A stretch of 50,122 bases of DNA, from assembly GCF_030908245.1 (NCBI RefSeq), contig NZ_JAVFJJ010000023.1:1-50122 (forward strand). The letters are read 5' to 3'. The notes under the pieces are model-generated. The model did no database searches. It was not told the origin of the DNA and worked only from the letters and a program-made list of their open reading frames with translations. Shown here piece by piece: positions 1,189-34,474 of the stretch (position 1 is the stretch's first letter; every line of letters begins with the position of its first letter). This DNA comes from Sinomonas sp. ASV322. GTDB taxonomy: Bacteria; Actinomycetota; Actinomycetes; Actinomycetales; Micrococcaceae. The translations under genes were made by a program, and so were the position numbers.

Positions 1189-1357
1189 CGGGCGGTGCGT
1201 GTGGGCGCGAGCGAGGGAACCGGCGGCCGGTCCTCGCCTTCTAGGACGGCCTCATTCCGCGGACACCCGGACAGCTCACCACGCGGACGGACCTACCAAG
1301 ATTCCCCGAAAAGCCCGGAAAATCAAGGAATCCAGTTTGCCCACCAACACCACTTAT

Positions 1358-1372
1358 AGTACTATTAGTACT
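1358..1372. promoter_or_regulatory. AGTACT operator pair before the gene at 1398
   Basis: Two AGTACT palindromes start at 1358 and 1367, 9 bp apart, in a locally AT-rich patch. The second starts 31 bp before the ATG at 1398. TACTAT (1360-1365) fits the actinobacterial -10 pattern TANNNT, with TTGCCC 17 bp upstream, so a bound protein would cover the promoter. Part of the family running to 5016. Confidence 0.65.
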
Positions 1373-1397
1373 GAGCCCACCAAGAGAGGAAGACACA

Positions 1398-1619
1398 ATG
1401 GAGCAGGCCCAGAGCGCATGGACCATCCGGACCGCGGCTGCGAACCTGACAGCCGGGACCCGGTTCGTCTTCGGCCCCGAACTCGGAGGCGAAGGCCAGA
1501 CCCTCACCGTGGCCTCGGCCACGAGCCTCTTCGGCACTGTCGCCGTCGCCACCGAAGAACTCGACTTCGACGTCGAGCTGGCCGCCTCCCAGTGGGTCAC
1601 CCTCTCCCCCGCCGAATGA
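1398..1619 (+). CDS. Small hypothetical protein (73 aa)
   Basis: The ATG at 1398 follows AGAGAGGAAG at ribosome-site distance. The 73-residue acidic product contains alternating beta-type stretches (TRFVFGPEL, GQTLTVASATSLF, GTVAVATEELDFDV), suggesting a small beta-barrel domain, but I do not recognise a family. It is the first gene behind an AGTACT operator pair and lies 52 bp upstream of the ardC-like gene, which has its own AGTACT site. Probably a plasmid maintenance or establishment accessory, by position only. Confidence 0.7.
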   Translation: MEQAQSAWTIRTAAANLTAGTRFVFGPELGGEGQTLTVASATSLFGTVAVATEELDFDVELAASQWVTLSPAE

Positions 1620-1640
1620 CCCGCACAAAAGACAACTAAT

Positions 1641-1646
1641 AGTACT
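1641..1646. promoter_or_regulatory. AGTACT operator before ardC-like gene
   Basis: CTAATAGTACTGTTA carries one AGTACT starting 31 bp before the ATG at 1672, the same spacing as at the 1398 gene. TACTGT at 1643-1648 fits a -10 element. Confidence 0.6.
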
Positions 1647-1671
1647 GTTACCACCATTGGAGGCAATAGAG

Positions 1672-2583
1672 ATGGCACGCAAGGTCACCACCCGCAAGAG
1701 CCCCGAGGAGCGCCGGGCGCAGGCCGAGGCCCTGCAGGCATCGATCGCGGAGCAGGTCGAGGAGCTGCGCGGCTCGGAGCAGTGGCAGCTCTTCCTGGAC
1801 TTCGCCCGCAGCTTCCACAGCTACAGCCTGAGCAACGTCCTCCTGATCCTCGCCCAGTGCCCCACTGCCACCCGCGTCGCAGGCTTCCGGCAGTGGCAGG
1901 AGAAGGGCCGACAGGTCCGCAAGGGCGAGAAGGCCATCCGGATCTTCGGCTTCCGCCAGAAGAAGGTCACCGACGAGGAGGCGCCCGAGGGAGAGGAGGA
2001 CGCCGAGACGAACGAGAAGGGCGAGCGTGTGGTGACCTACTACCCCGTGCTGAGCGTGTTCGACATCTCCCAGACCGACCTCACCGACCCCGAGGCCGGC
2101 GACCCTTCCCAGATCGCCCGCCGCCTCGAGGGCGAGGAGCCCCGCGGCATCCTCGCCGCGGCCGCCGACTGGCTCACCGGGCAGGGCTGGAGCTTCGAGC
2201 GCGAGCAGATCCCCGGCAGCGTCAACGGCTACACCACCACCGACGGCACCCGGCGCGTCGTAGTCGACGCCGACCTCTCCCCCGCACAGGCCGCCAAGAC
2301 CGCCCTCCACGAGGCCGCCCACGTCATCCTGCACGCCGAGGAGGACCACGCCGAGTACGTCCAGCACCGGGGCATCAAGGAGACCGAGGCAGAGAGCGTG
2401 GCCTACGTCGTCGCCGGCCTCCTCGGACTCGACACCACCGCCTACAGCATCGGCTACGTCGCCGGATGGAGCCAGGGCGAGGCAGAGGCCATCAAGGGAA
2501 CCGCCGCCCGCGTACTGCGCGCAGCGCACACCCTCGCGGACGCCATCACCGCGCCCGCCGAGCCCGGCGAAGACGCAGCCTGA
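1672..2583 (+). CDS. ardC: ArdC-like antirestriction protein / zinc metallopeptidase
   Basis: A 303-aa protein with the ArdC layout. The N-terminal domain (about residues 35-90) has SLSNVLLI followed by FRQWQEKGRQVRKGEKAI, typical of the ssDNA-binding domain of plasmid antirestriction proteins. A variable acidic linker follows. The C-terminal domain has a zinc-protease motif HEAAH at residues 213-217 and a downstream ETEAESVAY helix that would supply the third ligand. Members of the family are encoded in the leading regions of conjugative plasmids, and some protect incoming DNA from host restriction. I chose the ATG at 1672 because TTGGAGG lies directly upstream; an in-frame start at 1657 lies inside that ribosome site. 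An operator precedes it and a 19-bp dyad with the same core follows its stop. Confidence 0.85.
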   Translation: MARKVTTRKSPEERRAQAEALQASIAEQVEELRGSEQWQLFLDFARSFHSYSLSNVLLILAQCPTATRVAGFRQWQEKGRQVRKGEKAIRIFGFRQKKVTDEEAPEGEEDAETNEKGERVVTYYPVLSVFDISQTDLTDPEAGDPSQIARRLEGEEPRGILAAAADWLTGQGWSFEREQIPGSVNGYTTTDGTRRVVVDADLSPAQAAKTALHEAAHVILHAEEDHAEYVQHRGIKETEAESVAYVVAGLLGLDTTAYSIGYVAGWSQGEAEAIKGTAARVLRAAHTLADAITAPAEPGEDAA

Positions 2584-2590
2584 CCAACCC

Positions 2591-2645
2591 TAATAGTACT
2601 ATTGCCACCTTGACCTGAATGGGTGGCAATAGTACTATTAGTACT
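2591..2645. promoter_or_regulatory. Long dyad with three AGTACT sites after ardC
   Basis: TAATAGTACTATTGCCACC at 2591-2609 and its exact reverse complement at 2622-2640 form 19-bp arms around a 12-base loop. AGTACT occurs at 2595, 2631 and 2640, the last two 9 bp apart. It begins 8 bp after the ardC stop, so it could be both operator and terminator. The 120 bp between it and the next gene hold no recognised feature except the next operator. Confidence 0.65.
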
Positions 2646-2737
2646 GAAAGAGGGAATCGAGGCCTTAGGCGCGAGAGCCCCGACGCCGAGCATCGAAGCC
2701 CCGAGCACTGAAGGCAGACCGCCAAAAAGCCACTAAT

Positions 2738-2743
2738 AGTACT
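2738..2743. promoter_or_regulatory. AGTACT operator before the gene at 2768
   Basis: CTAATAGTACTCTTAC carries AGTACT starting 30 bp before the ATG at 2768. TACTCT at 2740-2745 fits a -10 element. Confidence 0.6.
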
Positions 2744-2767
2744 CTTACTACCAAGAGAGGTATTAAC

Positions 2768-2995
2768 ATGGCAATGCAGACAGTCGCCCCCAGCTCCCCG
2801 CTCAGCCGGTTCCTGGAAGCCTGGGGCCGCGACCTCGCCCTAGACCTCGCCCAGCAGCTCACCTGCACGGAGGCGGAGGCCATAGCCGAGCTCTTCGAGG
2901 CCTGCGGACACACCCACGAGGCCGCCGCATGGCTCGAGAACCACAGCCGCGCCGACGAGGAAGGAGACCGCCACCACCAAGGCGCCAGCGCCTAG
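2768..2995 (+). CDS. Small hypothetical protein (75 aa)
   Basis: The ATG at 2768 follows AAGAGAGGT. The product is helical and acidic, with a middle run LALDLAQQLTCTEAEAIAELF and a C-terminal stretch rich in Glu, Asp and His (RADEEGDRHHQG). No family recognised. It is led by an AGTACT operator and followed within 10 bp by a GC-rich hairpin. Likely a member of the AGTACT-controlled maintenance set; function unknown. Confidence 0.65.
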   Translation: MAMQTVAPSSPLSRFLEAWGRDLALDLAQQLTCTEAEAIAELFEACGHTHEAAAWLENHSRADEEGDRHHQGASA

Positions 2996-3002
2996 AAACC
3001 AC

Positions 3003-3026
3003 GTGGGGCCCCGCCCGGGGCCCCAC
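3003..3026 (+). terminator. GC-rich hairpin between small genes
   Basis: GTGGGGCCCC and GGGGCCCCAC form a perfect 10-bp stem with loop GCCC. It lies 8 bp after the stop at 2995 and 28 bp before the next ATG, so it could terminate, or attenuate read-through into 3054. Confidence 0.65.
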
Positions 3027-3053
3027 AACCAGCACAAGGAAAGGCGAACCACC

Positions 3054-3287
3054 ATGGCCGCAACGACCGACCTGCACATCGGACAAACCGTCGAGTGGTA
3101 CGACATACCGATTGGAGGATGCGCCACGGGGACCATCGAGAGCGTCTCCCACCGGACGGGCTGGGTGACCGTGCGCCTGAACGCGCCGTACACGCTCGCC
3201 CCGCGCAACGACGGCTCCGGCGCCCTCGCCCACGAGGACGTAACCCACATCACCATGCGGGCGCGCGACCTTACGCCCCGCGACTAG
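3054..3287 (+). CDS. Small hypothetical protein (77 aa), SH3-like barrel candidate
   Basis: I start at the ATG 3054 because CAAGGAAAGG lies upstream at normal distance; the longer in-frame option at 3003 begins inside the hairpin. The product opens with IGQTVEWYDIPIGGCATGTIESV, then TGWVTVRLNAPY, a strand-rich pattern like small SH3/KOW-type barrels that bind nucleic acid or protein. No family assigned. No AGTACT site lies directly before it, so it may be transcribed through the hairpin from the 2768 promoter. Confidence 0.6.
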   Translation: MAATTDLHIGQTVEWYDIPIGGCATGTIESVSHRTGWVTVRLNAPYTLAPRNDGSGALAHEDVTHITMRARDLTPRD

Positions 3288-3315
3288 GCCCAAGCGGGCC
3301 ACGGGCACCACTAAT

Positions 3316-3363
3316 AGTTCTCTTAGTACTAAGAGTCCCAGTACTCTTAGTACTAAGAGAACT
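3316..3363. promoter_or_regulatory. Array of five AGTACT-type sites before the gene at 3378
   Basis: Sites start at 3316 (AGTTCT), 3325, 3340, 3349 (AGTACT) and 3358 (AGAACT), with spacings 9, 15, 9, 9. The outer arms AGTTCTCTTAGTACT (3316-3330) and AGTACTAAGAGAACT (3349-3363) are exact reverse complements, and CTCTTAGTACTAAGAG occurs twice. This is the densest array in the window, with the 3349 site starting 29 bp before the ATG at 3378. It is a good candidate for a centromere as well as an operator. Confidence 0.7.
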
Positions 3364-3377
3364 GAAAGGACCAGCGA

Positions 3378-3614
3378 ATGCAGACCATCACCGTCCACCG
3401 GCTCGCAGACCTCCGCAGGGGAGACCGGATCATCGGCTACGACGGGCACGTGTACGTCGGCCCCCGGACCGTCGCGAGCCCGCTCGGCCCCATCGAGCCC
3501 GGATCCCCCGTACACGGCGTGAGGCTCGAGGCACCCGGCGGACAGGGCGTCATCGAGCGGGTGCTTTACCCCTCCCAGATGGACGGCCGCCCCATCGAGG
3601 TGGTCAGGCCCTAG
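3378..3614 (+). CDS. Small hypothetical protein (78 aa)
   Basis: The ATG at 3378 follows GAAAGGACC. The product starts MQTITVHRLADLRRGDRIIGYDGHVY and looks beta-rich, with several short strands (HVYVGPRTV, GVIERVLYP). The RRGDRII segment recalls small barrel or translation-protein-like folds but is not diagnostic. It is the gene just behind the five-site operator array and upstream of parA. Function unknown; the context suggests plasmid stability or its control. Confidence 0.65.
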   Translation: MQTITVHRLADLRRGDRIIGYDGHVYVGPRTVASPLGPIEPGSPVHGVRLEAPGGQGVIERVLYPSQMDGRPIEVVRP

Positions 3615-3640
3615 GGCCTTGCGCCACCATTCCCAGCATC

Positions 3641-3646
3641 AGTACT
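3641..3646. promoter_or_regulatory. AGTACT site upstream of parA (distal)
   Basis: A single AGTACT in CATCAGTACTAATAG, 121 bp before the parA ATG. A 35-codon frame (ATG 3658 to TGA 3765) starts 12 bp after it and overlaps the parA start as ATGA, but it has no ribosome site. Confidence 0.5.
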
Positions 3647-3697
3647 AATAGAGTCAGATGCGACACAGGGCGACCGGCCAGCCCGCCCAGGCCGGGC

Positions 3698-3730
3698 GTG
3701 GCGCGGCCCTGATCGACAGCGCCGCGCCAC
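3698..3730 (+). terminator. Hairpin upstream of parA
   Basis: GTGGCGCGGC and GCCGCGCCAC form a perfect 10-bp stem with a 13-base loop, 5 bp before the proximal parA operator. It could insulate parAB from upstream transcription. Confidence 0.5.
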
Positions 3731-3734
3731 CAAC

Positions 3735-3740
3735 AGTACT
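3735..3740. promoter_or_regulatory. AGTACT operator at the parA start
   Basis: AACAGTACTGTT is a 12-bp palindrome starting 30 bp before the parA ATG, with the AGTACT core 27 bp before it. TACTGT (3737-3742) fits a -10 element and TCGACA lies 18 bp upstream of that. Autoregulation by a partition protein would be typical. Confidence 0.65.
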
Positions 3741-3761
3741 GTTACCAGCAATGGAGGCATC

Positions 3762-4562
3762 ATGACAGCTCGAATCTTCGCCCTGTGCAACCAGAAGGGC
3801 GGCGTCGGCAAGAGCACCACGGGTTTCCAGCTCGCCCGCGCGGCCGTGCGGCGCGGCTCCCGCGTGCTCGTGGTCGACCTCGACCCCCAGGGCAACATCA
3901 CCTCCACGGCTGCCGCCGAGGACGTGCCCGACGACCAGGCCGGCCTTGCCGATGCACTCAGCGCTCGCGCCGACGAGACGCTGCGCGACGTCATCGTGCC
4001 CGGCGTCTGGGCCGGCCTGGAAGTCGTGCCAACCAGCGGGGAGACGCTGGGCTTCGTGCGCGACGAGCTCGTCATCGCAGGGGCCGGCCGCGAGGGCAGG
4101 CTGCGCGAGGCCCTGGCCAGCGTCATCGAGGACTACGACCTGATCCTGATCGACTGCGCCCCCAGCCTGGACCAGCTCACCATCAACGGCCTGACGGCCG
4201 CCCACGGCGTGGTCATCGTGACCCACTCGAAGCAGTGGAGCCTGTCCGGGCTCGCGCAGCTCCTGAAGACGATCGACAGCGTGCGCCAGTACTACAACCC
4301 CCTGCTGCGGATCTGCGGCGTCATCGTCAACCAGCACGAGGAGCAGACCATCGGCGGCAAGTACTGGCTGGACGAGCTGAACGCCGCCGCCAAGGAGCGG
4401 GGCCTGAGCGTCCTCGCCCCGCCCATCCCCAAGCGCGTCGCCATCGCGGACGCCACCGAGGCAGCCCGCGGCCTCGACGAATGGGGGACCGCCGACGCCG
4501 CCGCGCTCGGCGCGATCTATGCCGAGCACCTCGCAACACTGGAAGGAGCAAACGCCTCATGA
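3762..4562 (+). CDS. parA: ParA-type partition ATPase
   Basis: A 266-aa ATPase of the ParA/Soj family that moves plasmid copies to daughter cells together with a DNA-bound partner. The deviant Walker A KGGVGKST is at residues 12-19, VDLDPQGN follows near 44-51 and LILIDCAPSLDQLT near 127-140. The small size, without an N-terminal DNA-binding domain, fits type Ib ParA proteins, whose partners are usually small ribbon-helix-helix proteins. That matches the next gene, which overlaps it as ATGA. The start is set by AATGGAGG upstream. An AGTACT operator overlaps its probable promoter. Confidence 0.93.
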   Translation: MTARIFALCNQKGGVGKSTTGFQLARAAVRRGSRVLVVDLDPQGNITSTAAAEDVPDDQAGLADALSARADETLRDVIVPGVWAGLEVVPTSGETLGFVRDELVIAGAGREGRLREALASVIEDYDLILIDCAPSLDQLTINGLTAAHGVVIVTHSKQWSLSGLAQLLKTIDSVRQYYNPLLRICGVIVNQHEEQTIGGKYWLDELNAAAKERGLSVLAPPIPKRVAIADATEAARGLDEWGTADAAALGAIYAEHLATLEGANAS

Positions 4563-4942
4563 GCGCCCGCCCCGCACCCCGCAGGTCGAGCCTGGCCGGG
4601 TCGAGCCCCATCGCCCCGCCAGCCGCACCGCAGCCAGTGGCCGAGCCGCCCACGCCTACGGCCGCGGCCTCCGAGCCAGCCGACCCCGGGCGGCAGTCGG
4701 CCCGGGCCAAGACGAAGTACCCGCCCAAGACCAGCTTCTACCAGGAACCCGAGGACACCGACCGCATGCGCGCCGCCCTCCTCCACACGCTTGTCACCGA
4801 AGGGTCGCGATCGCTCTCGAAGTTCATCAACGACGCCGTCATGGCAGAAGTCGAACGCCTCGAGCGCAAGTACAACCACGGCAAGCCGTTCCCCCCGGTC
4901 AAGGCCCGCGAACTGCCCCAGGGCCGGCCGATGGGGGAGTGA
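4559..4942 (+). CDS. parB: Partition DNA-binding protein (RHH, ParB/ParG-like)
   Basis: A 127-aa protein translated from an ATGA overlap with parA. The first half is a Pro/Ala-rich, disordered arm with a basic RQSARAKTKY patch, of the kind that in ParG and Omega relatives contacts ParA. The second half (about residues 60-105) carries SFYQ, then an amphipathic helix and SLSKFINDAVMAEVERLERK, resembling a ribbon-helix-helix dimer. It ends YNHGKPFPPVKARELPQ. An orphan relative is encoded at 9415. The AGTACT repeats scattered from 1.36 to 5.02 kb are the obvious candidate binding sites, by analogy with Omega, which binds short repeats at several promoters. That DNA target is an inference. Confidence 0.78.
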   Translation: MSARPAPRRSSLAGSSPIAPPAAPQPVAEPPTPTAAASEPADPGRQSARAKTKYPPKTSFYQEPEDTDRMRAALLHTLVTEGSRSLSKFINDAVMAEVERLERKYNHGKPFPPVKARELPQGRPMGE

Positions 4943-4981
4943 AGACAAGGGACGGCCTTGACAAGCCCACCGCATGGGAAT

Positions 4982-5036
4982 GGCGTCCCTCTGCCTCTCT
5001 TAGTACTAAGAGTACTAAGAGAGGCAGAGGGACGCC
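4982..5036. promoter_or_regulatory. 26-bp perfect dyad with two AGTACT sites, after parB
   Basis: Arms 4982-5007 and 5011-5036 are exact reverse complements around the 3-base centre AAG. The inner ends carry AGTACT at 5002 and 5011, again 9 bp apart. The outer parts (GGCGTCCC and GGGACGCC) extend the stem. It lies 40 bp after the parB stop and could be terminator, centromere or both. Confidence 0.7.
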
Positions 5037-5093
5037 TTCCCCCCCGACCTGATCAAGCCGTACGGCGCGCACCGCCATGGAAGGATCGGAGCC

Positions 5094-5459
5094 ATGCGCC
5101 TCCTTGCCGACGTCATCGCCGCGGCCGCCGACGCCAGGCACTCGACCCCGGCCCAGATCGACTACGCCCTCGCCAGCGGCGCGAGCGACGCCGAAGTGCG
5201 CGCGATGCTCGTCTCCGGGGCGACCCACCTCGCCATGCAGGAGATGCCAGGGAACCACCCCGAAGGACTCACCCTGGCCCTCGTCGGCCGCCGCGAGGAG
5301 ATCCTGGCCGCCGCGATGGGCGGGCTCGAGCTGCGCCGCCTCGAGGCCTCCGTGCTCGGCTACCGCGTCCTGGACGAGGGCGACGACGAGACGCCCGCGG
5401 CCGTCGTGTACGCGGACTCTGGATCGACCGGAGCCGACTGGGCCGACACCCTCCTCTGA
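5094..5459 (+). CDS. Hypothetical protein (121 aa) with duplicated tail
   Basis: The ATG at 5094 follows AAGGATCGGA. The helical N-terminal part includes LLADVIAAAADARH and AQIDYALASGASDAEV. The tail GDDETPAAVVYADS and STGADWADTLL is nearly repeated in the small protein at 30458. No family recognised. It is the first gene after the partition dyad. Its 3' flank also shares GATACTTGCTG (5487-5497) with the flank of the 30458 gene, so the two tails derive from a duplication. Confidence 0.7.
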   Translation: MRLLADVIAAAADARHSTPAQIDYALASGASDAEVRAMLVSGATHLAMQEMPGNHPEGLTLALVGRREEILAAAMGGLELRRLEASVLGYRVLDEGDDETPAAVVYADSGSTGADWADTLL

Positions 5460-8125: not shown

Positions 8126-8386
8126 ATGACCATCACCATCTACACCAAGCCCGGATGCTTCGGCTGCACCAAGACCGAGGAGAAGTTCCGCGAGGCCGGC
8201 ATGACGCCCGGTGTGGACTTCCAGGTGATCGACCTGACCCAGACCCCCGAGGCCATCGAGTACGTCACCAACGACCTCGGGTACTCCCAGGCCCCCATCG
8301 TCGTGGTCGACGAGCACGACCACTGGGCCGGCCTGAACCCTGTGCGCATCAAGGCCGTCACCGACGCCTTCAAGACCGACAACTGA
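8126..8386 (+). CDS. nrdH: NrdH-like glutaredoxin
   Basis: An 86-aa thioredoxin-fold protein. The redox motif CFGC is at residues 11-14 after YTKPG, and the cis-proline region [21 protein letters not shown] matches NrdH-type glutaredoxins, which donate electrons to ribonucleotide reductase. The usual NrdH active site is CVQC-like, so this is a variant. No reductase is encoded in the window, so it would work with host enzymes. It precedes ssb by 56 bp; together they suggest support of DNA synthesis. Confidence 0.85.
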
Positions 8387-8442
8387 ATACCGCAGTACCG
8401 ACCCGGCAACACCAAAACCAACACGAAAAGAGGGCAGCCGAA

Positions 8443-8955
8443 ATGGCTGGAGACACCACCATCACCGTGATCGGGAACCTGACGAACGACCCCGAGCTGA
8501 GGTTCACTCCCAGCGGGTCCGCCGTCGCGAACTTCACCGTCGCGTCGACGCCGCGCACCTTCGACCGCCAGGCCAACGAGTGGAAGGACGGGGAGACCCT
8601 GTTCCTGCGCGGGCAGGTCTGGCGTGAGTCGGCCGAGAACGTGGCCGAGTCCCTGACCAAGGGTATGCGCGTGATCGTTTCCGGACGCCTCAAGAGCCGG
8701 TCCTACGAGACCAAGGAAGGCGAGAAGCGCACCGTGATCGAGCTCGAGGTGGACGAGATCGGCCCGAGCCTCCGCTACGCCACAGCCAAGGTCAACCGCG
8801 TCCAGCGCGGCAACGGCCAGGGCAGCCAAGGGCAGACACCCGCACGCCAGGGCGCCGGACGCCAGGCCGCACCCCAGGACGACCCGTGGGCGACACCCCA
8901 CCAGGAGCCAGCCGGTAGCTGGGGCAGCGGCCCGGACACCGAGCCGCCGTTCTGA
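8443..8955 (+). CDS. ssb: Single-stranded DNA-binding protein
   Basis: A 170-aa SSB. The N-terminal OB fold (residues 1-110) has [29 protein letters not shown] and the [19 protein letters not shown] and [11 protein letters not shown] segments of bacterial SSBs. A Gly/Gln/Pro-rich linker follows, and the tail ends DTEPPF, a form of the acidic tip that binds partner proteins. The start follows AAAAGAGGG. Conjugative plasmids often carry ssb to coat the entering strand. A 12-bp-stem hairpin follows its stop. Confidence 0.95.
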
Positions 8956-8962
8956 TCAACCA

Positions 8963-8991
8963 GGCTGGGGCGCCGGCTCGGCGCCCCAGCC
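8963..8991 (+). terminator. Terminator after ssb
   Basis: GGCTGGGGCGCC and GGCGCCCCAGCC form a perfect 12-bp stem with loop GGCTC, 7 bp after the ssb stop. It is followed by C bases rather than a T-run. Confidence 0.75.
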
Positions 8992-9055
8992 CCCTCAGTG
9001 TCAGATGACAGCCCTAGAATCCGGCCCAAGATCGCCTTGAATGAGGAGAACCAAC

Positions 9056-9418
9056 ATGAGCGAAGAAACCCCTGCCGTCGTCCAGGAGGCCGACGCGATC
9101 TATGAATCTGTCCGCGCGATCTGCCATGACAGCCGCACCCACCCGGCGCCCACGGTGTACCGGGTCTTGGGGAACCTGAAGGGTGCCTCCGGGCACATGC
9201 TGGCCCAGGCGCTGCGCCAGCTCGCCGCGGGCCTGGAGCGGTCCCTGAATGAGTACGACGTCTACGAGGACGACGGCCGGAACCCGGCCGAGTCGGTGGC
9301 CACGGCCGCCGAACACATGCGCGCGGCCGCCACCCTGGCCTCACAGCTGGGGGAACACCTGGCCGAGGCGCAGAACGCGATCGCGGGGCAGGGGTACCGG
9401 ACGGCCGAGGAAGAGTGA
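9056..9418 (+). CDS. Hypothetical helical protein (120 aa), coupled to an RHH protein
   Basis: I use the ATG at 9056 behind AATGAGGAGAAC. The product is an all-helical acidic protein (AIYESVRAICHD, HMLAQALRQLAAGLERSL, AAEHMRAAATLASQLGEHL). No family recognised. Its stop overlaps the GTG of the next gene as GTGA, the same arrangement as parA/parB, so it probably acts with the ribbon-helix-helix protein. It has no ATPase motif, so it is not a ParA. Confidence 0.7.
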   Translation: MSEETPAVVQEADAIYESVRAICHDSRTHPAPTVYRVLGNLKGASGHMLAQALRQLAAGLERSLNEYDVYEDDGRNPAESVATAAEHMRAAATLASQLGEHLAEAQNAIAGQGYRTAEEE

Positions 9419-9651
9419 GCAAGGAGAAGCCGGCGTCGTTCTCTCCGTACTTCCGCGTCGAGGACGCAGACCAGGTACGAGCGGCATTCGAGGCCGTGGG
9501 GGAGCAGGAGAAGCACAGCTCGATCTCGGAGCTGATTGAGGCGGCAACGTTGCGTGAGCTGAAGCGGCTGCAGCGCAAGTACAACGCTGGCAAGCCCTGG
9601 CCCGGAGTGCCTGCGAGCCCCGGCCGGGCAGGGCGGCCGCGCAAGATCTAA
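9415..9651 (+). CDS. Ribbon-helix-helix protein, paralogue of the partition protein
   Basis: A 78-aa protein starting at a GTG that overlaps the previous stop. It aligns with the C-terminal half of the parB product: both have an SF-x-x start, a helix with D-x-RAA or D-RMRAA, then S-SISELIEAATLRELKRL against S-LSKFINDAVMAEVERL, and both continue RKYN-x-GKP-x-P. It lacks the long disordered N-terminal arm. A DNA-binding dimer that competes at, or has diverged from, the partition sites is likely. No AGTACT repeats lie near it. Confidence 0.72.
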   Translation: MSKEKPASFSPYFRVEDADQVRAAFEAVGEQEKHSSISELIEAATLRELKRLQRKYNAGKPWPGVPASPGRAGRPRKI

Positions 9652-10199: not shown

Positions 10200-11132
10200 T
10201 TAGTCGTGTAGTAGGCCGCCGATCCGGTCGAGCAAGGCGAGTATTTCCTCTGCTGCCGAGGGAGCGACTTTGTTCACATGGCGCGAGAGCGCATCTTGAA
10301 GTGCCTCCTGAATTTCCTCCGGGACGGCGTTGTCGCTGTGCCTACGCAAGAACAGGATCCAAGCCTTTACCGGAATCCCAAGGATTTCATGTTGCTCCGC
10401 GCGAGCGATAAAGTCGTCCATCAGCGGTTTGGCGCGTGGAAGGCGCCCATAGTTGCCGCCGCCATCGTAGTTCGGCACAGCCAGAACCAGGTCAGCCTTC
10501 CCGGGGTACGGTCCTGCGTTTGGTGGATACACGATCCCCGTGTCGCTTGACGTATCACGGACATGCTGCCACCAGAAGTCCCGGTACTCGGCCGCGTACC
10601 GGGCGCTTTCCACCCACGGTTCCGTTACCTGAGCGACACCGGCAACCGCGTTGCTCAGATGCCACGGAACCACGCAAAGCAAGTCGTGCGGAGCGCAGGC
10701 GGCTGGGGTTACCTGATATCGGAGGCTCGGCACGCCTTCCTTTGAGAGTAGCCACCAACCCTTAAGCTCGATGCCGAGTGCTATATCGGGCTCCCCGACA
10801 TCTCTACGGACGAGGCGTACGTCCGGGAACGATTGGCTTGAACGTTCGAAACGGTAGCCGAGCCACTCGTTTTCCGGGTCCCACATGTCTCGCAAGCTAT
10901 TGAGAGTTCGAACAACCTCAACTTCTATGCCGGCGCCGAGGAGAGTATTTAGGTTGAAGAGATCTGTTGCGTTTACCCCGGAGATTGGATTGTCGAACGA
11001 GAAATCGCCGGGCAGCGCCAACAAAGCGCTCCTGACCCGCTCTTGGAGGACTGTCTTCGGATCCGATGGGTCGAGTTCAAGTCGTTCCGGTTTTACGCTT
11101 CTTGCCACTCGCTCCCATTCTTCTAGGCTCAC
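10200..11132 (-). CDS. Putative restriction endonuclease (PD-(D/E)XK)
   Basis: A 310-aa protein encoded directly after, and overlapping by 4 bp, a DNA methyltransferase. Residues 115-124 read PDIALGIELK, a good match to the PD-(D/E)XK nuclease core with the ELK in a predicted strand, followed by GWWLL. The remaining sequence is not one I recognise, which is usual for restriction enzymes. Pairing, overlap, motif and lower GC content all support a type II restriction partner. Recognition sequence unknown. The alternative, an unrelated protein near an orphan methylase, is less likely. Confidence 0.75.
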   Translation of the reverse strand: MSLEEWERVARSVKPERLELDPSDPKTVLQERVRSALLALPGDFSFDNPISGVNATDLFNLNTLLGAGIEVEVVRTLNSLRDMWDPENEWLGYRFERSSQSFPDVRLVRRDVGEPDIALGIELKGWWLLSKEGVPSLRYQVTPAACAPHDLLCVVPWHLSNAVAGVAQVTEPWVESARYAAEYRDFWWQHVRDTSSDTGIVYPPNAGPYPGKADLVLAVPNYDGGGNYGRLPRAKPLMDDFIARAEQHEILGIPVKAWILFLRRHSDNAVPEEIQEALQDALSRHVNKVAPSAAEEILALLDRIGGLLHD

Positions 11133-12178
11133 GCGCTCACCTCGGTGCTGTTAGCGGTGCGACCGACCGCCTCTTCGAGGCGGGACTTAGCGATGTCCTG
11201 GAACGTTGGATTTAACTCGGCGACATAGGCGCGGCGGCCAAGTTCGACGGCGGCGACTGATGCGGACGCGAGGCCGCCAAAAGGTTCCCACACGACATCG
11301 CCTCGCGTCGTGACGGCCTGGACTTGGCGGCGCATGAACTCCAAAGGCTTCTGATTCAGATGCGACGCAGACTGCACGGAGGGGTTGTGCACTCGAGGTG
11401 CCGAACGCTCCAGGGTGCCTTTGAAGCGCTCACTGCCGTGCAGCGGCGGTCTCTGCCACACGTTGGTCAGCCCGTGGACATGGCTCCATTGGTATCGAAG
11501 AACGTCCCATTCTTCGGCCGTCACGGAACGCTCGCCGTCGACCGAATAGTAGGGTCTACCGGCTCGAATTCCATGTTCGTTCGCGTAGGCAGCAAGCCGC
11601 TCGACCATTTCTCCTGGAGGCCAGTACCAGAGCCAATCTTGAGTCAGGTATTTTCGAGTGGCGGCGTTTTTAACTCCGCACGCCTCATTGGCTTTGTACA
11701 GCGGGATGCCTGCCCGCTGCCATTCGTATCTGAGCCAGGGTTTGACGTCCATTGCACCGTCGACCGTGTCGATCATGAACCGACGCTGGTACAGCACTGA
11801 GACTTCCGACACCACTGGAAACCTTCGGATTGTCCGACCATTCACGTTTCCAGCAACATGGGCGATGCCTTTGTCCCAGGTCACCGTCTGGACGTAATCC
11901 CAACCATGGGCCTCCAGAAGGGGATGGACAGTCGCCCAGCCGATTTCAGTGTTCCAGAACCAGAGTGTGGTTCCCGGCAGTGCTGCGCGATCCCAGGCAG
12001 CGACGTGCGGCCGGTACCAGTCCACCAGACCCTCGACCCCCGTCGTATCTCCGTGGAACCCACGGACGCCGTAGGCGCCGTCGGAGATGATCGTGTTCGG
12101 TGCAGGCCACTTCCCGTAGGCCTTGAGCACGTTCCCCTTGTGCAAGGTGAACGGCGCTCGGATCGGCGTCACTGTCAT
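11129..12178 (-). CDS. Site-specific DNA methyltransferase (N4/N6 amino type)
   Basis: A 349-aa methylase. Motif IV is SDGAYG at residues 32-37, the variant of the (D/S)PPY catalytic loop seen as SDGPYG in several restriction-linked methylases. Motif I comes late (WEPFGGLASASVAAVELGRR, near residue 300) after NQKPLEFM, so the domain order is that of beta-class enzymes. It would methylate adenine N6 or cytosine N4 at the sites cut by the nuclease in the next gene. The module may stabilise the plasmid by post-segregational killing as well as defend the cell. GC content is visibly lower than that of neighbouring genes. Confidence 0.85.
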   Translation of the reverse strand: MTVTPIRAPFTLHKGNVLKAYGKWPAPNTIISDGAYGVRGFHGDTTGVEGLVDWYRPHVAAWDRAALPGTTLWFWNTEIGWATVHPLLEAHGWDYVQTVTWDKGIAHVAGNVNGRTIRRFPVVSEVSVLYQRRFMIDTVDGAMDVKPWLRYEWQRAGIPLYKANEACGVKNAATRKYLTQDWLWYWPPGEMVERLAAYANEHGIRAGRPYYSVDGERSVTAEEWDVLRYQWSHVHGLTNVWQRPPLHGSERFKGTLERSAPRVHNPSVQSASHLNQKPLEFMRRQVQAVTTRGDVVWEPFGGLASASVAAVELGRRAYVAELNPTFQDIAKSRLEEAVGRTANSTEVSA

Positions 12179-25978: not shown

Positions 25979-28900
25979 GTGCTGTCCCTGAAAGTCATCT
26001 CGGCGGGCACTGGCTACGAGTACTACACCTCGGAGATGGTCAGTGGCGACGAGCTGCGCGCGGACGGCTACGAGCTGGGCGACTACTACCACGCCAGGGG
26101 CCTCCCTCCCGGGCAGTGGATCGGCGACGGGTGCGCGACCCTTGGCGTTTCCGGGAATGTCTCCAAAGAGCAGATGGCCAACCTGATGGGCATGGGAATC
26201 CACCCCGACGCCGAGCGGATCAGGGCCGAGGCCATCGCCGAGGGCAAGACCCCGAAGCAGGCCGAAGCGGAGACTCTGCTGGGCCGGAAGTACTACGAGT
26301 ACGAGGCCAAGACAGGGGAGCTGGCAACCCGCATCAAGACCGCCGAGGACGACTTCAAGCGGCTGAACCAGCGCGAACCGCGCGACGCCGAGAAGCGGAA
26401 GATCCACCGCAAGGAAGGCGCGAAGCTCTTCCGCGAACGCCACGGCCGAGGCCCCGACGACAACGAGGAGCTGGCCAAGTTCATCACCGGACAGCTGCGT
26501 CCACAGCAGTCGGCCGTCGCAGGATTCGACATGACCATGACCCCCGTGAAGAGCGTCAGCGTCCTATGGGCAGTCGGCGGAGACGACGCCCGCAAGCTCG
26601 TCGAACGCGCCCAGCACGAGGCCGTGAAGGACACCGTTTCCTGGCTCCAGGAGCACGCCGTCCGGACCCGGACCGGTGCAAACGGCGTCGCCCAGGAAGA
26701 CGTCCCCGGTGGCATCGTCGCCCAGGTCTTCCGCCACTACGACTCCCGCGAAGGCGACCCGAACCTCCACGACCACCTCGTGATCTCCAACAAGGTCCAA
26801 ACAGCCGACGGCAAGTGGAAGACCATCGACTCGCGCCTGCTGCACAAGATGAGCGTGTCCGCGTCCGAGCACTACAACGCCCGCATACAGGCACACCTTG
26901 CCGCCCGCGGCGTACAGTTCGAGGCCCGCGGCATGGGCCCAGGGAAGCAGCCGGTCATGGAGGTCAAAGGCATCTCCGCCGAGCTGCTGGAGGAGTTCTC
27001 CACGCGCCGCGCAACCATCCGCGAGGAGCTTGACCGGCTTGCCGACGAGTACGCGGCGAAGTTCGGCCACGCCCCCGGCAAAGAAGCCATGCTCAAGCTT
27101 GCCCAGCAGGCCACCCTGGAGACCCGCGCGGCGAAGAAGAGCGGTCGGAGCCTGGAAGAACTGGTGACCGAGTGGCGTTCCCGCGCCGCATCGGTCGTCG
27201 GCGAACGCACCCTCGGCCGACTCGCCGAGCGCGTCATAGGCGCCCGCGAGGCACGCCAGGCCGCACAGGTCGACGTCGCTGCCGCCGCCCGCGAACTTGT
27301 CGCCGTGGTCGAAGCAGAGCGCGCCGTGTGGGGACAGAACCACCTCGAAGCCGCCGCCCAGCGGTGGGCGAAGGAATACTCGCTCGAGAACGGCAGCGTC
27401 GCCTCCGAGACCGTCCGGGAGATCATCGGTCACGCCCTCACACACGAGGCCCAGCGCGTCACACCGGAACGAGCCCACGCCACTTTCGAACCGCTGACCC
27501 GCGCCGACGGGTCCAGCGTGTTCGAGCACAAGGGCTCCATCCTCTACGCCTCGGAAGGCCTGATCCGGGCGGAGAACTACCTGCTGCGAGCAGGGCAGCG
27601 GGAAGTCATCCCGGTGGCCTCACCGGACGTGTTCCACGCCGTCATCGCAGAGCGCAACGCCCGCGTCGCAGCCGGGGAAGCCTTCCCCCTCAGCCCCGCG
27701 CAGATGAGCATGGCGTTCGAGTTCACCGTCTCGGACAAGCTCGTCAGCGTCGGCAAGGGCCCGGCCGGAACCGGCAAGTCCACCGCCATGGAAGTAGTCC
27801 GCGACGTCGTCCAGCGCTCCGGCGGCAACGTCATCGCCCTCGCCCCGCAGGCCGTCGCCGCGACCCTCCTGGGCGACAAACTCGGCATCCGCGGCATGAC
27901 AGCCGACGCGTTCGCCATCGGATCCGGGACCGTCGCACCCGGTGACCTCGTCATCCTTGACGAGGCCGGCATGTGCGGGACCAAGCTGCTCGCCGACGTC
28001 GTCGAACGCGCCGAAACGGCCGGGGCCCGCATCGCCCTGCTCGGCGACGATGCACAGATCGGCGCCGTCGCCGCGGGCGGCGCATTCGGGATGCTCGCCG
28101 CCGAACTCGGAGCCGTCGAGCTGGACACGATCCACCGCTTCGAAGACCCCGAAGAGGCCCAGGCATCCCTCGCCCTCCGCCGCCGCGGCGAGGGCGAGAC
28201 GGACCCCTTCGCCTGGTACAGGGAGCACGGCAGGGTTCAGGCCGGCGACGGAGCCATGGTGGAGGCCCTGGCGTTCCGGCGATGGCAGGAAGCCCACCAG
28301 AAGGGCACCCCCGCCGTGGTCATGGCCGCCACCAACGAACAGGCCCAGCGGCTCTCCGAGCGCGCCCAGGCGGCCCTGGAGATCCTCGGAGAGATCGACA
28401 CCTCCCGGGACGGGCGGACCCTCCGGGACGGGTCCAAGGCATGGGCCGGGGACACGATCGTCACGCGCCGGAACGAATGGATCGAGACGAAGTCCGACCG
28501 CGTCCGCGTCCACAACGGCGACCTCTGGAGGGTGGAAAAGGTCAACCGGGACGGCACGCTCACCGTCCGCCACCAGGGCGACGGGAAGCGCACCACCCTC
28601 CCCGGGGACTACATCGAGCAGAACGTCCACCTCGGCTACGCCTACACCACCCACCGGGCCCAGGGCATGACCGTCACCGCAGGCATCCCCATCGTCTCGG
28701 CCTCAACGGCACGGAACCTCGTGTACGTGGCGATGACCCGCGGCGAGGTCACCAACCAGCTGTACGTGCAGCTCGAGGACGGCCAGACCCTCGAGGAGGT
28801 GCTGGGCCGGATCGCCGCGAACGAGGGCATCGAGCGCAGCGTCCACCAGGCCATGGCCGACGAGCACACGCGCATCGACTCGACCGATCAGCTCGCGGCC

Positions 28901-30361
28901 GAGTACCGGCACGTGAGCGGGCTCGCCGACGAGCTGCGCTTCAAGGGCATGGCCCATCAGGCCCTCGGGCCGATGGCCACGATGTTCACCGCCTCTGACG
29001 CATGGGGGGCCGTGTCCACCCACCTCGCCGTCGCGGAGGCCGACGGCTTCGACCCCCGCGCCCTGCTGGTGGAAGCCGTGAACATGCGCTCCTTCGAAGG
29101 CGCCGAGGACGCAGCGGCCGTGCTCGCCTGGCGCATCGAAGGACTCCTCGCCAAGGCACCGGAGAACGCCACGCCAAAGCACGCATCCCTGGCCACGCAG
29201 AGCGAGGAGAGCCTGTACAAGGCGCTCAAGGTCGCCGAGGACCGCGAAGCCAAGGCACTCGCACACCGGCAGTCCGCCATCGCCGCCCAGCACGGACCCT
29301 GGCCCAAGGAGCACTGGACGAACCGCCCCTTCGGGCACCTGACCGAAGCGGCCATCGAGTCCCGCATCAGGGCTGACCGCCTGCTGGCCCGCACGGACGC
29401 GACCCTGCTCACCAAGGAACAGCGGGAACGCCTCGGAGTCGAGGTCCCGGCCAAGGACGCCCGCAAGCTCTCGTGGGAGATCCGCGCCCTCCAGGACGAG
29501 CTGCGCCACCGCAAGGGCCTCGACCCCGCCCAGGACGTCGCCGAGCTGGCCGAACGCGGCCACGCCAACCGCAAGGCCGCAGGGGCCGGGCACTTCGAGC
29601 GCCACCGGCAGTCCCACGAGATCGCCGCGGCCATCCGCGACGAGCTGCGCCGCCGCCAGCTCGTGCCCGACCCGGCCAAGGCCGCCCAAGCCGCGCCAGA
29701 CAGGCTCCCCGAATGGGCCGCCCCGCACCAGGCCGCGGCGGACGAGTTCACCCCGGCGAACTGGCGCAGCGAGCTGAACGAGCGCCGCGCCGTCCTCACG
29801 GCCCGGTTCGAGGAGACCGGGCACCTCATCGCCGCCGAGCCCCCCGCCTGGGCCGCCGGCCTCGGGCCCGTCCCCGCCGACCCCGAGCGGGCCCAACGCT
29901 GGCGCGAGACCGCCGCCGAGGTCGCCGCGTTCCGGGACCGCTACAAGATCCCCGCGGCCGAGACAGCCCCGATCCCCGAACGGTTCCGGGACCACCCAAC
30001 CGGCGCGGAGCTCCACACACGCACCGTCAGCCTCGCCCGCGGCACCAACTCAGCACCGGCACCAGCAGAGGAGACCACCATGGCCGCACAGAAGGCCGTC
30101 GAGCGCGCGGCCGCGACCCACGCCCCCAAGGCCCAGGCACAGCGCACCTCAGACAAGGACCGCACCGCCAACGGGCAGGACGCCACCAGCGTCACCGCCA
30201 CCCAACGGGCCAAGGACTCCCTGGCCGCGCTCAACAGGCTCCGCGACCAGCAGGAGGCCCTGCGCCGCGCCGAACAGAAGCCCCGCCGCAAGGACACCCC
30301 CGGCGGGAACGACAGCGGACGCAGCGACGAACGCAACCGCGACCGCGGCCGCAGCCTCTGA
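25979..30361 (+). CDS. traA: TraA: MobF relaxase-helicase
   Basis: A 1460-aa conjugative relaxase fused to a helicase. The N-terminal relaxase domain has candidate catalytic tyrosines in GTGYEYYTSEM (12, 14, 15) and the three-His metal site H253, H264, H266 in HYDSREGDPNLHDHLVISN. The helicase part has Walker A GPAGTGKST near residue 596 and VILDEAGMCG about 65 residues later, as in TrwC/TraI-type SF1 helicases. The last 400 residues are helical and charged, as in actinobacterial TraA. It would nick oriT, stay bound to the 5' end and unwind the strand for export. The GTG start has no good ribosome site. Confidence 0.93.
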   Translation: MLSLKVISAGTGYEYYTSEMVSGDELRADGYELGDYYHARGLPPGQWIGDGCATLGVSGNVSKEQMANLMGMGIHPDAERIRAEAIAEGKTPKQAEAETLLGRKYYEYEAKTGELATRIKTAEDDFKRLNQREPRDAEKRKIHRKEGAKLFRERHGRGPDDNEELAKFITGQLRPQQSAVAGFDMTMTPVKSVSVLWAVGGDDARKLVERAQHEAVKDTVSWLQEHAVRTRTGANGVAQEDVPGGIVAQVFRHYDSREGDPNLHDHLVISNKVQTADGKWKTIDSRLLHKMSVSASEHYNARIQAHLAARGVQFEARGMGPGKQPVMEVKGISAELLEEFSTRRATIREELDRLADEYAAKFGHAPGKEAMLKLAQQATLETRAAKKSGRSLEELVTEWRSRAASVVGERTLGRLAERVIGAREARQAAQVDVAAAARELVAVVEAERAVWGQNHLEAAAQRWAKEYSLENGSVASETVREIIGHALTHEAQRVTPERAHATFEPLTRADGSSVFEHKGSILYASEGLIRAENYLLRAGQREVIPVASPDVFHAVIAERNARVAAGEAFPLSPAQMSMAFEFTVSDKLVSVGKGPAGTGKSTAMEVVRDVVQRSGGNVIALAPQAVAATLLGDKLGIRGMTADAFAIGSGTVAPGDLVILDEAGMCGTKLLADVVERAETAGARIALLGDDAQIGAVAAGGAFGMLAAELGAVELDTIHRFEDPEEAQASLALRRRGEGETDPFAWYREHGRVQAGDGAMVEALAFRRWQEAHQKGTPAVVMAATNEQAQRLSERAQAALEILGEIDTSRDGRTLRDGSKAWAGDTIVTRRNEWIETKSDRVRVHNGDLWRVEKVNRDGTLTVRHQGDGKRTTLPGDYIEQNVHLGYAYTTHRAQGMTVTAGIPIVSASTARNLVYVAMTRGEVTNQLYVQLEDGQTLEEVLGRIAANEGIERSVHQAMADEHTRIDSTDQLAAEYRHVSGLADELRFKGMAHQALGPMATMFTASDAWGAVSTHLAVAEADGFDPRALLVEAVNMRSFEGAEDAAAVLAWRIEGLLAKAPENATPKHASLATQSEESLYKALKVAEDREAKALAHRQSAIAAQHGPWPKEHWTNRPFGHLTEAAIESRIRADRLLARTDATLLTKEQRERLGVEVPAKDARKLSWEIRALQDELRHRKGLDPAQDVAELAERGHANRKAAGAGHFERHRQSHEIAAAIRDELRRRQLVPDPAKAAQAAPDRLPEWAAPHQAAADEFTPANWRSELNERRAVLTARFEETGHLIAAEPPAWAAGLGPVPADPERAQRWRETAAEVAAFRDRYKIPAAETAPIPERFRDHPTGAELHTRTVSLARGTNSAPAPAEETTMAAQKAVERAAATHAPKAQAQRTSDKDRTANGQDATSVTATQRAKDSLAALNRLRDQQEALRRAEQKPRRKDTPGGNDSGRSDERNRDRGRSL

Positions 30362-33800: not shown

Positions 33801-34474
33801 CACGCTTCCTCCTGCTCTTTCTGCTGGACACGTTCGGGGTAGGGAAGCCACTTGTCCGGGACCGCCTCATAAGCGAGCCATCCCCGCTCCTGGGCCTTGA
33901 TGTGGCGGCCGCCGGGGCACTGTTTGAACACGCCTTCGTGGCCGAAGAGGAAGGCGTAGTGCCGGTCCCAGTGGTTGACCCACCAGCCGGACAGCTCGCC
34001 CTCGGCCTCAGCCGCGATGTACGCCAGCCAGAGGGCGTGAAGCCGGTCGACGGCCTCGGGGTGGTCCCACCACACCGGGCACCACGAGTTGTCGCCCTCG
34101 TTCACGGACTCCAGGCGGGACAGCCGGCCTTGGATCCAGCGGACGAAGGCGCTGCGGGACTTCTCGGCCTCTTCGACGAGGTCGACCGCCGCGGCCGGTT
34201 CGGCCTCGGCCTCAAGGACCGCGTCGGCCCAGGCCCGCAGCTCGGTCATGGACCACTTCGCGGTTCCGCCCGCCGTCTCTGCCGGGGCCGGGGCCTCGCG
34301 GTCGATGACCAGCTGCCGGAAGGACGCCGTGGAGAGCCGGCGTCCGAAGGCCTCGGAGAGGAACCCTGCCGCATCGCGGGCCGCAAGGAGGAAGTCGACG
34401 CTGCTTCCCTCGCCCTCACCGGCCGCGGCCGCGACGTCGGGCACGTCCTCGGTGACCTCCGGCTCCTCGCTCAC
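33800..34474 (-). CDS. DUF4913-like transfer protein (224 aa)
   Basis: It starts at GTG 34474, overlapping the coupling protein stop as GTGA. An acidic N-terminus is followed by a C-terminal domain with WCPVWWDHPEAVDRLHALW, LSGWWVNHWDRHYAFLFG and FKQCPGGRH, the Trp-rich signature of the DUF4913 domain found in actinobacterial conjugative elements. Its role in transfer is not established; adjacency to the coupling protein suggests it adapts substrates or the relaxosome. Confidence 0.75.
   Translation of the reverse strand: MSEEPEVTEDVPDVAAAAGEGEGSSVDFLLAARDAAGFLSEAFGRRLSTASFRQLVIDREAPAPAETAGGTAKWSMTELRAWADAVLEAEAEPAAAVDLVEEAEKSRSAFVRWIQGRLSRLESVNEGDNSWCPVWWDHPEAVDRLHALWLAYIAAEAEGELSGWWVNHWDRHYAFLFGHEGVFKQCPGGRHIKAQERGWLAYEAVPDKWLPYPERVQQKEQEEA

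Follow-up and report, generated by a model that had tools for sequence, protein, structure and literature searches.

The 50,122-nucleotide contig NZ_JAVFJJ010000023.1 of Sinomonas sp. ASV322, which we analysed at full length and call the window, carries a network of AGTACT palindromes in the spaces between its partition genes and their neighbours. We suggest, from sequence comparison, that the ribbon-helix-helix (RHH) protein encoded at 4559, a ParB of the pCXC100 type, is quite probably both the centromere binder of this element and, through AGTACT operators, the repressor of its establishment and maintenance regulon. An earlier note on the same DNA had proposed this RHH protein as the single regulator of the maintenance block, and the proposal gains support from the comparison with related plasmids, in which one can read the operator with its 9-bp pitch, where it stands, which genes it precedes and how it is linked to the RHH protein; binding, repression, a burst of expression after transfer and the centromere role are what we infer from it.

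The AGTACT sites of the window

AGTACT is found at 23 places in the window, a number that none of 100 dinucleotide shuffles attained, with 1.56 expected, and 16 of the 23 copies fall in 1358-5016, 14 of them intergenic and two within parA. The earlier note had listed 14 positions, all but the two inside parA, and every one is present in the sequence, as are the variants AGTTCT at 3316 and AGAACT at 3358. Divided by coding class, the sites of 1300-5093 show a marked non-coding excess, the 780 non-coding bases holding 14 copies and the 3014 coding bases only 2 (binomial p 1.9e-8). The parA-internal copies (4288, 4360) lack the AAT/ATT flanks of the operator, and the other seven (12916 to 46280) lie within long open reading frames (ORFs), which are in themselves no proof of genes, with none of the seven scoring as an operator in the matrix scan described below. 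Pairs exactly 9 bp apart, as had been noticed before, stand at 1358/1367, 2631/2640, 3340/3349 and 5002/5011, and also at 3316/3325 and 3349/3358 when AGTTCT and AGAACT are counted; the neighbouring cores 3325 and 3340 are 15 bp apart. At genes 1398, 1672, 2768, 3378 and 3762 a core also starts, respectively, 31, 31, 30, 29 and 27 bp ahead of the ATG, and the overlap of cores with a TACT(A/G/C)T hexamer resembling a -10 box is real, with a fair -35 at 17-18 bp only for 1358, 2631 and 3735. The block is composed as follows:

1358..1372, no strand: operator cores 1358 and 1367, 9 bp apart, before gene 1398; promoter-like TTGCCC-17-TACTAT
1398..1619, + strand: small gene (ORF) under the operator pair, no Pfam match
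1641..1646, no strand: operator core (matrix), 31 bp before the ardC ATG at 1672
1672..2583, + strand: ArdC-like anti-restriction protein with ArdcN and M78 peptidase domains (Pfam PF08401, PF06114)
2590..2645, no strand: operator triplet 2595, 2631 and 2640, with TTGACC-17-TACTAT at 2631
2738..2743, no strand: operator core (matrix), 30 bp before gene 2768
2768..2995, + strand: small gene (ORF), no Pfam match
3054..3287, + strand: small gene without an operator of its own (ORF, Pfam scan, placement scan)
3316..3363, no strand: largest operator array, with a 21-nt perfect inverted repeat; candidate parS (putative centromere)
3378..3614, + strand: small gene of the h4 family with an operator upstream (ORF, placement scan)
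3641..3646, no strand: operator core (matrix), 121 bp before parA
3735..3740, no strand: operator core, 27 bp before the parA ATG, in TCGACA-18-TACTGT
3762..4562, + strand: ParA-type Walker ATPase (Pfam AAA_31/CbiA)
4559..4942, + strand: RHH centromere-binding protein of the pCXC100 ParB family (PF18064, 3no7), proposed operator reader
4976..5042, no strand: inverted repeat with 32-nt arms (94%), 3' of the RHH gene, with cores 5002 and 5011 at its tip

The array at 3316-3363 is made of two runs of three 9-bp units, offset from each other by 6 bp: AGTTCT 3316, AGTACT 3325 and the degenerate AGTCCC 3334 in the first, and AGTACT 3340, AGTACT 3349 and AGAACT 3358 in the second. Cores 2595 and 2631, a 36-bp pair, sit in the arms of a 20-nt perfect inverted repeat (2590-2641), and the hairpin at 4972-5048 folds with -62 kcal/mol (z -12). 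Strong inverted repeats recur at 4976-5042, 3316-3363 and 2590-2641 (z -8 to -12), each with operator cores at its tip or in its arms, and these hairpins may be terminators, cruciforms or simply paired operators.

The operator and its 9-bp pitch

The operator is longer than AGTACT: it is a near-symmetric element of about 26 bp, TAnCCCTAATAGTACTATTAGGGnTA, built at a 9-bp pitch and overlapping a -10 box. Its profile was drawn from the window and 50 related loci, whose 169 distinct AGTACT contexts were reduced to the 107 with at least 4 of 6 inner-flank matches to AAT/ATT, 62 being omitted; duplicates and sites below 4/6 were likewise omitted from the matrix, covariation and -35 analyses. It reads approximately TAnCCCTAAT AGTACT ATTAGnGnTA, conserved from about -9 to +16, with the outer units 9 bp off the core; the outer positions (-9 to -3 and 10 to 16) are conserved on both sides though they were not used in site selection. 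In 245 kb of simulated sequence the 26-bp matrix gives a single false match, at score 9. Trained without the window, on 92 sites of other loci, it finds 14 window sites scoring at least 15, all at 1358-5011 and consisting of 13 AGTACT cores and AGTTCT 3316, with 3340 below threshold, and the full matrix finds 15 window sites and none outside 1300-5100.

Exact TAATAGTACTATTAG has no match in 396 genomes of the order, which shows only the rarity of the site because the window itself holds no exact copy. Palindromic hexamer counts over whole loci were useful but noisy, because in GC-rich DNA CGGCCG and GCCGGC show enrichment too, and were superseded by the 26-bp matrix. Viral contigs gave at least 120 stretches with the operator pattern (80 loci among the matches listed), probably chance matches, and 2 weak loci for the RHH protein.

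The 9-bp rule recurs on related plasmids, where it had been proposed to be sought. Upstream of parA, self-similarity in 19 loci with KVSFYQ-type RHH proteins peaks at lags 9 (z 6.3) and 18 (z 6.1), with smaller peaks at 3, 6, 12 and 21, and 11 loci with other RHH types also peak at lags 9 and 18, as detailed below. Exact cores no more than 60 bp apart are spaced by 9 bp (9 cases), 18 (4), 36 (2), 34 (5), 32 (2), 40 (2) and 15 (1), counted with L002 kept and L028 dropped; pairs 32-36 bp apart also occur in L001, L003, L006, L019, L023, L029, L035 and L038.

Placement before genes and overlap with promoters

Taking a score of at least 15 within 130 bp upstream of the estimated start as the rule, we find an operator before every ardC (13 of 13 loci) and every h4-type gene (13 of 13), before parA in 28 loci out of 34 and before ssb in 14 of 15, the window being included for all but ssb. 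By the same rule, operators are nearly absent before glutaredoxin genes (2/16) and DUF192 genes (0/9). The near-identical L002, L018 and L040-L043 and the copies of the window itself (L013/L014) were left out of these counts, and the close L004, L028 and L029 were kept. At most ardC and parA genes some 28 bp separate the centre of the core from the start, and at ssb 32-40 bp.

The six loci that miss an operator before parA are L008, L020, L027, L030, L031 and L037. The ParA match is partial in L020 and L037 and a partial 30% match in L008, and the sequence before parA in L030, L031 and L027 is unlike that of their relatives. L030 and L031, set beside L004 and L029, differ in the region before parA and have no operator in the stretch examined, a natural case of loss. 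In L008 (5900-6252, Cutibacterium acnes plasmid pTP-CU411) the start of the parA frame runs, by eye, directly into the RHH gene, so that parA looks internally deleted; this locus has one weak operator-like match (score 16) and no AGTACT.

Sites that formed a centromere dispersed among many intergenic spaces, with regulation of parAB only, would fit the array at 3316-3363 and the centromere-binding function of the family (PMC5016525). A centromere needs neither a regular distance from start codons nor overlap with promoters, however, and therefore both of these features, seen at ardC, ssb and h4 with -10/-35 overlap in a subset, make a segregation-only role unlikely.

Of 106 sites, 22 have a TTG at 17 bp ahead of TACTAT and 8 have it at 18 bp, with only 0-2 cases at spacings of 12-16 and 19-23, and therefore at least a subset of the sites are -10/-35 promoters with the operator lying on the -10 box. 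This brings up the alternative that the sites are a mere conserved -10 element of one plasmid promoter type, with no dedicated repressor: TACTAT fits a -10 box, TTGAnn lies at 17 bp in a subset, and many cores are about 28 bp from the start codon. What such an element does not account for is the conservation of the outer positions on both sides, the tandem cores 9 or 18 bp apart, the sites 5002/5011 in a hairpin downstream of the RHH gene, and the change of the promoter word together with the RHH protein between actinobacterial plasmids, and we regard this alternative as very unlikely. It is hardly credible, in turn, that the operators activate, or act as roadblocks or terminators, instead of repressing, even though strong hairpins carry some of them: sites with a visible -35 lie over the -10 box, so that a protein bound there would obstruct the polymerase, and the RHH ParBs described in the sources as acting on promoters are repressors (PMC5016525, PMC9499535).

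The RHH protein as the likely reader

The protein encoded at 4559 matches Pfam PF18064 (CB_ParB_C) with 80.8 bits against a cut-off of 27 (E 7.5e-23), a family matched in 5 of 396 genomes of the phylum, the genome of the window included. Its sole solved relative by sequence, up to E 0.1, is 3no7, the ParB of pCXC100 (phmmer E 4.2e-8, profile E 6.4e-15), and this is also the only credible fold match (Foldseek probability 1.00, E 1.7e-3). In the predicted structure (mean pLDDT 71) helices span 64-81 and 86-105, and the single chain was modelled without a strand; the presumed strand ahead of helix 1 would be KTSFYQ. The gene parA (3762-4562) lies directly upstream and overlaps the RHH start at 4559.

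The distribution of operators among loci makes this protein their likely reader. At least two sites scoring 20 or more are found in 31 of the 50 loci of the K[VT]SFYQ group, and none of 13 other PF18064 loci has a site scoring 20 or more; membership of the group was defined by locus number (L001-L012, L015-L052), so that L009, with SFEQ, and L037, for which no strand is listed, are in it.

A second PF18064 protein lies further along the window:

9415..9651, + strand: second RHH protein of PF18064 (Pfam), called RHH2, without an N-terminal tail; ranked low as AGTACT reader

The earlier note had named it as an alternative binder, a suggestion that did not hold up well, since the protein has no N-terminal tail and none of 14 loci of its type has an operator scoring 20 or more. 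That another plasmid or host protein reads the sites is opposed by the absence of the operator pattern, at up to 2 mismatches, from other contigs of the same genome, and by promoter similarity, which tracks the parA-linked RHH protein. It is thus most improbable that either RHH2 or some other protein is the reader in place of the 4559 protein.

The promoter word follows the RHH protein rather than ParA

We asked with which of the two, ParA or the RHH protein, the promoter sequence changes. Over 29 loci, the similarity of parA promoters (shared 6-mers) correlates with both RHH (0.62) and ParA (0.53); it keeps a partial r of 0.405 with RHH given ParA (p 0.0005) and of 0.148 with ParA given RHH (p 0.13), the RHH stretches of a few loci (L007, L025 and L089 among them) having been shifted by some residues in this input. 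The promoter sequence, by this comparison, follows the RHH protein rather than ParA.

Individual loci illustrate the point. In L053 (Microbacterium), ParA and ArdC are 72% and 64% identical to those of the window and RHH is 41% identical, with the strand KLTIYQ; AGTACT is absent there, AACTCT stands before ardC, after ardC and before a hyp4225-type gene, AGAGTT, its reverse form, stands before parA, and the h4 promoter has neither AACTCT nor AGAGTT. Conversely, L011 and L052, with ParA only 38% and 36% identical to that of the window and RHH proteins bearing KTSFYQ, have three AGTACT operators each, outside the parA promoter. In L012 (pACHL01) the RHH gene has no adjoining parA (one lies about 7 kb away) and the operator is at the start of the RHH gene itself.

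Eight further plasmids (L082-L089) were picked by ParA similarity before their RHH proteins were seen, and L088, where the next annotated gene is not RHH-like, was not used. With KVAYYQ (L082, L083) AGTACT is kept, and L083 has four pairs exactly 18 bp apart; KMGYYA (L084, L085) goes with AGACCT, RTSFKH (L086) with CACGAAC units before ardC and parA, the weakest of these word counts, KMGFYS (L087) with ACTATGG and one AGTACT promoter, and QVKFYA (L089), by eye, with GGTACC. Several plasmids with a different RHH strand thus carry other words, though not all, as KVAYYQ keeps AGTACT, and these cases are covariation and not a blind test because no word had been predicted beforehand. The cross-plasmid word comparison of the lag analysis, with its hand-picked promoters, was not leaned on.

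A wider generalisation, which we advance tentatively and would somewhat sooner doubt than accept, is that throughout Actinobacteria there may be a class of plasmids in which the RHH ParB acts as master switch of establishment, each ParB variant with its own 9-bp word at the ardC, ssb, parAB and other promoters, with every operator part of a distributed centromere and with a code from strand to operator. The code would read K[VT]SFYQ and KVAYYQ for AGTACT, KLTIYQ for AACTCT, KMGYYA for AGACCT and RTSFKH for CACGAAC. If true, one protein would couple the state of segregation, anti-restriction and the entry programme.

Evidence that weighs against the proposed regulon

Several results pull the other way and must be set against the role proposed here for the 4559 protein. 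On the side of the operator, the inner flanks belonged to the site-selection rule, so that their conservation was favoured by it; the arms show no compensatory covariation beyond composition when the right arm is shuffled among sites (1 of 13 positions at p<0.05, with p 0.016, and the pair -4/11 in the opposite sense), and the symmetry of the operator is one of composition only. The pattern TAATAGTACTNTTA at up to 2 mismatches speaks for the operator, with 15 strand matches in 8 places of the 4.34-Mb genome to which the window belongs, all of them at 1354-5020 of the window contig (C16), but the reversed-pattern control gives 12 matches, whose places are not shown. Among the 11 loci with other RHH types, L055, L073 and L086 account for most of the lag signal (z 8.3 at 9, 7.2 at 18, 6.4 at 27), and L087 has no peak.

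On the side of placement, the loci are related and some are near-identical, so the locus counts are not independent and are inflated; 12 of 15 listed window sites have no fair -35, the exceptions being the three cores given above, and in the matrix scan no operator stands before the ssb and glutaredoxin genes of the window itself (8.1-8.9 kb), this ssb being different from the operator-bearing ssb of relatives. On the side of the reader, 19 of the 50 loci in the SFYQ group hold one site or none with a score of at least 20. In 11 of these no parA was detected beside the RHH gene (L009, L012, L036, L044-L051; L049 begins at a contig end and is uninformative on this), and the remaining 8 are the six parA misses together with L015 and L024, with one site each. 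L030 has the same RHH frame as L004 and L029, yet has no sites, and the parA promoters of L011, L052 and L053 share 5.3, 6.1 and 6.1 6-mers with other SFYQ loci, against 10.2 within the group.

How the regulon may work

Most likely, dimers of the 4559 ParB would bind next to one another, in steps of 9 bp, on operators centred on AGTACT that span about three 9-bp units and lie at many sites over the -10 box of a promoter, and therefore occupancy should block transcription by occlusion. The repressed targets would be its own parA-parB operon, ardC, several small genes and, in relatives, also ssb. In a plasmid-bearing cell the block would be kept low, and upon transfer into a ParB-free cell, by analogy with the systems compared below, a burst of expression would follow until ParB accumulates. 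The longer arrays (3316-3363, perhaps also 2595-2645 and 5002-5016) would, together with ParA, serve as centromere, the array at 3316-3363 being the best candidate. This array has two three-unit runs and Omega needs four units, so that both it and the single operators would fall short if that rule were carried over.

Other features of the window and its relatives

A TrwC relaxase with a helicase domain (25979-30358) and a TraG/VirD4-type coupling protein (34474-36690) are encoded in the window, which is therefore probably part of a transferable element. A DNA methylase (N6_N4_Mtase, 11132-12178) stands beside an ORF without Pfam match (10203-11132), and the two could form a restriction-modification pair. 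The second block at 8126-9651 (glutaredoxin, SSB, an uncharacterised gene and RHH2) has no AGTACT sites, and a glutaredoxin gene near an RHH2-type gene, often together with SSB, recurs in loci of the Arthrobacter group (among L054-L070).

Some relatives carry a GC-rich element, very roughly 150-235 nt long, that stands in front of ardC, glutaredoxin and other genes and is present once to three times on a plasmid; it is closed by CCGTGAAG ... CTTCACGG, and its end is AAAACGTGGGG or a similar sequence:

L001:1957-2191; L003:2512-2746; L006:2718-2952; L017:1804-2038 and 3207-3441: copies of the element
L053:2170-2404 and 3811-4045; L084 (three); others: further copies

In its 20-row alignment the closing pairs are near invariant, with double changes in 3 of 19 pairs; it has no Rfam match and was not found in the window. 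The element resembles EGeRS1, the structured regions that precede establishment genes on pLS20 (PMC8708921, section 3.3), and by this analogy it is a candidate single-stranded DNA promoter or cis-RNA. Separately, L023:8611-8726 matches the ALIL pseudoknot (RF01497, 52.8 bits). ALIL is a frameshift element of insertion sequences. L019, filed under a Deinococci bacterium (metagenome-assembled genome), has the full ardC-ssb-parA-RHH set and is probably a misbinned actinobacterial plasmid contig.

Comparison with known systems

The earlier note had called the repeat and the gene set undescribed. This does not hold as stated: the RHH family is PF18064, with the ParB of pCXC100 solved, much of the gene set is shared with sequenced actinobacterial plasmids, and both the protein family and the principle of a partition protein as regulator are already known; the AGTACT network, its extension to ardC and ssb on actinobacterial plasmids and the covariation of strand and operator were not found in a literature search that left out the primary pCXC100 papers.

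The nearest system by protein family is ParB/parS of pCXC100 from Leifsonia xyli (type Ib; PDB 3no7; PF18064). In the 2011 work of Huang, its centromere is reportedly made of nine uninterrupted 9-nt repeats, cooperatively bound. pCXC100 reportedly has a single repeat block at the par operon, whereas the window has short 9-bp arrays at many promoters, including those of ardC and small genes, with runs of at most three units and no long uninterrupted block, and the presumed strands align as KTSFYQ (4559) and MTVTVG (pCXC100). The sources describe the pCXC100 protein as an RHH centromere-binding protein acting on direct repeats (PMC5016525), and RHH ParB proteins as both centromere binders and repressors (PMC5016525, PMC9499535).

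Omega, the ParB of pSM19035, is likewise an RHH centromere binder whose sites overlap and control the promoters of several plasmid genes, four contiguous units being needed for full ParA activation (PMC9499535). It differs in its 7-bp WATCACW unit, present in 7-10 consecutive copies, as the units of the window are of 9 bp and AGTACT type (AGTACTATT), fewer per site and before other genes. The likeness to Omega that had been suggested for this network is nevertheless supported by the comparison, with sites ahead of several maintenance-gene starts and a -35 at 17-18 bp in a subset only.

StbA of R388 is not known to be an RHH protein. It is a segregation protein on 9-bp direct repeats that are also found in three other maintenance promoters, and it represses ardC and others (PMC3098194, PMC3937220), with a different repeat, TTGCATCAT, at two-base spacing (PMC3098194). 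Because R388 DNA arrives without its repressors, transfer is followed by an overshoot of ardC and ssb (PMC3937220). R388 is, however, a Gram-negative plasmid, and its ssb is repressed by ArdK. Reg of p576 (pLS20 family, clade II) is predicted to be an RHH repressor; its operators lie at ardC and other establishment promoters, which are therefore expressed transiently in the recipient. It is described as a repressor and not as the partition protein, and it belongs to Bacillus plasmids (PMC8708921). ArdC, for its part, is needed in the recipient (PMC7213743). The trait of an establishment regulon that the relatives of the window share with these systems is the common operator at the ardC (13/13) and ssb (14/15 loci) promoters.

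In summary, if the 4559 ParB does govern these operators, the coupling of segregation with anti-restriction and single-stranded-DNA-binding genes known from pSM19035, R388 and p576 would be a general design of actinobacterial plasmids, whose regulons could then be read from sequence alone. The many natural protein-operator pairs would make RHH operator specificity testable by simple swaps and would provide orthogonal repressors and centromeres for actinobacterial genetics.

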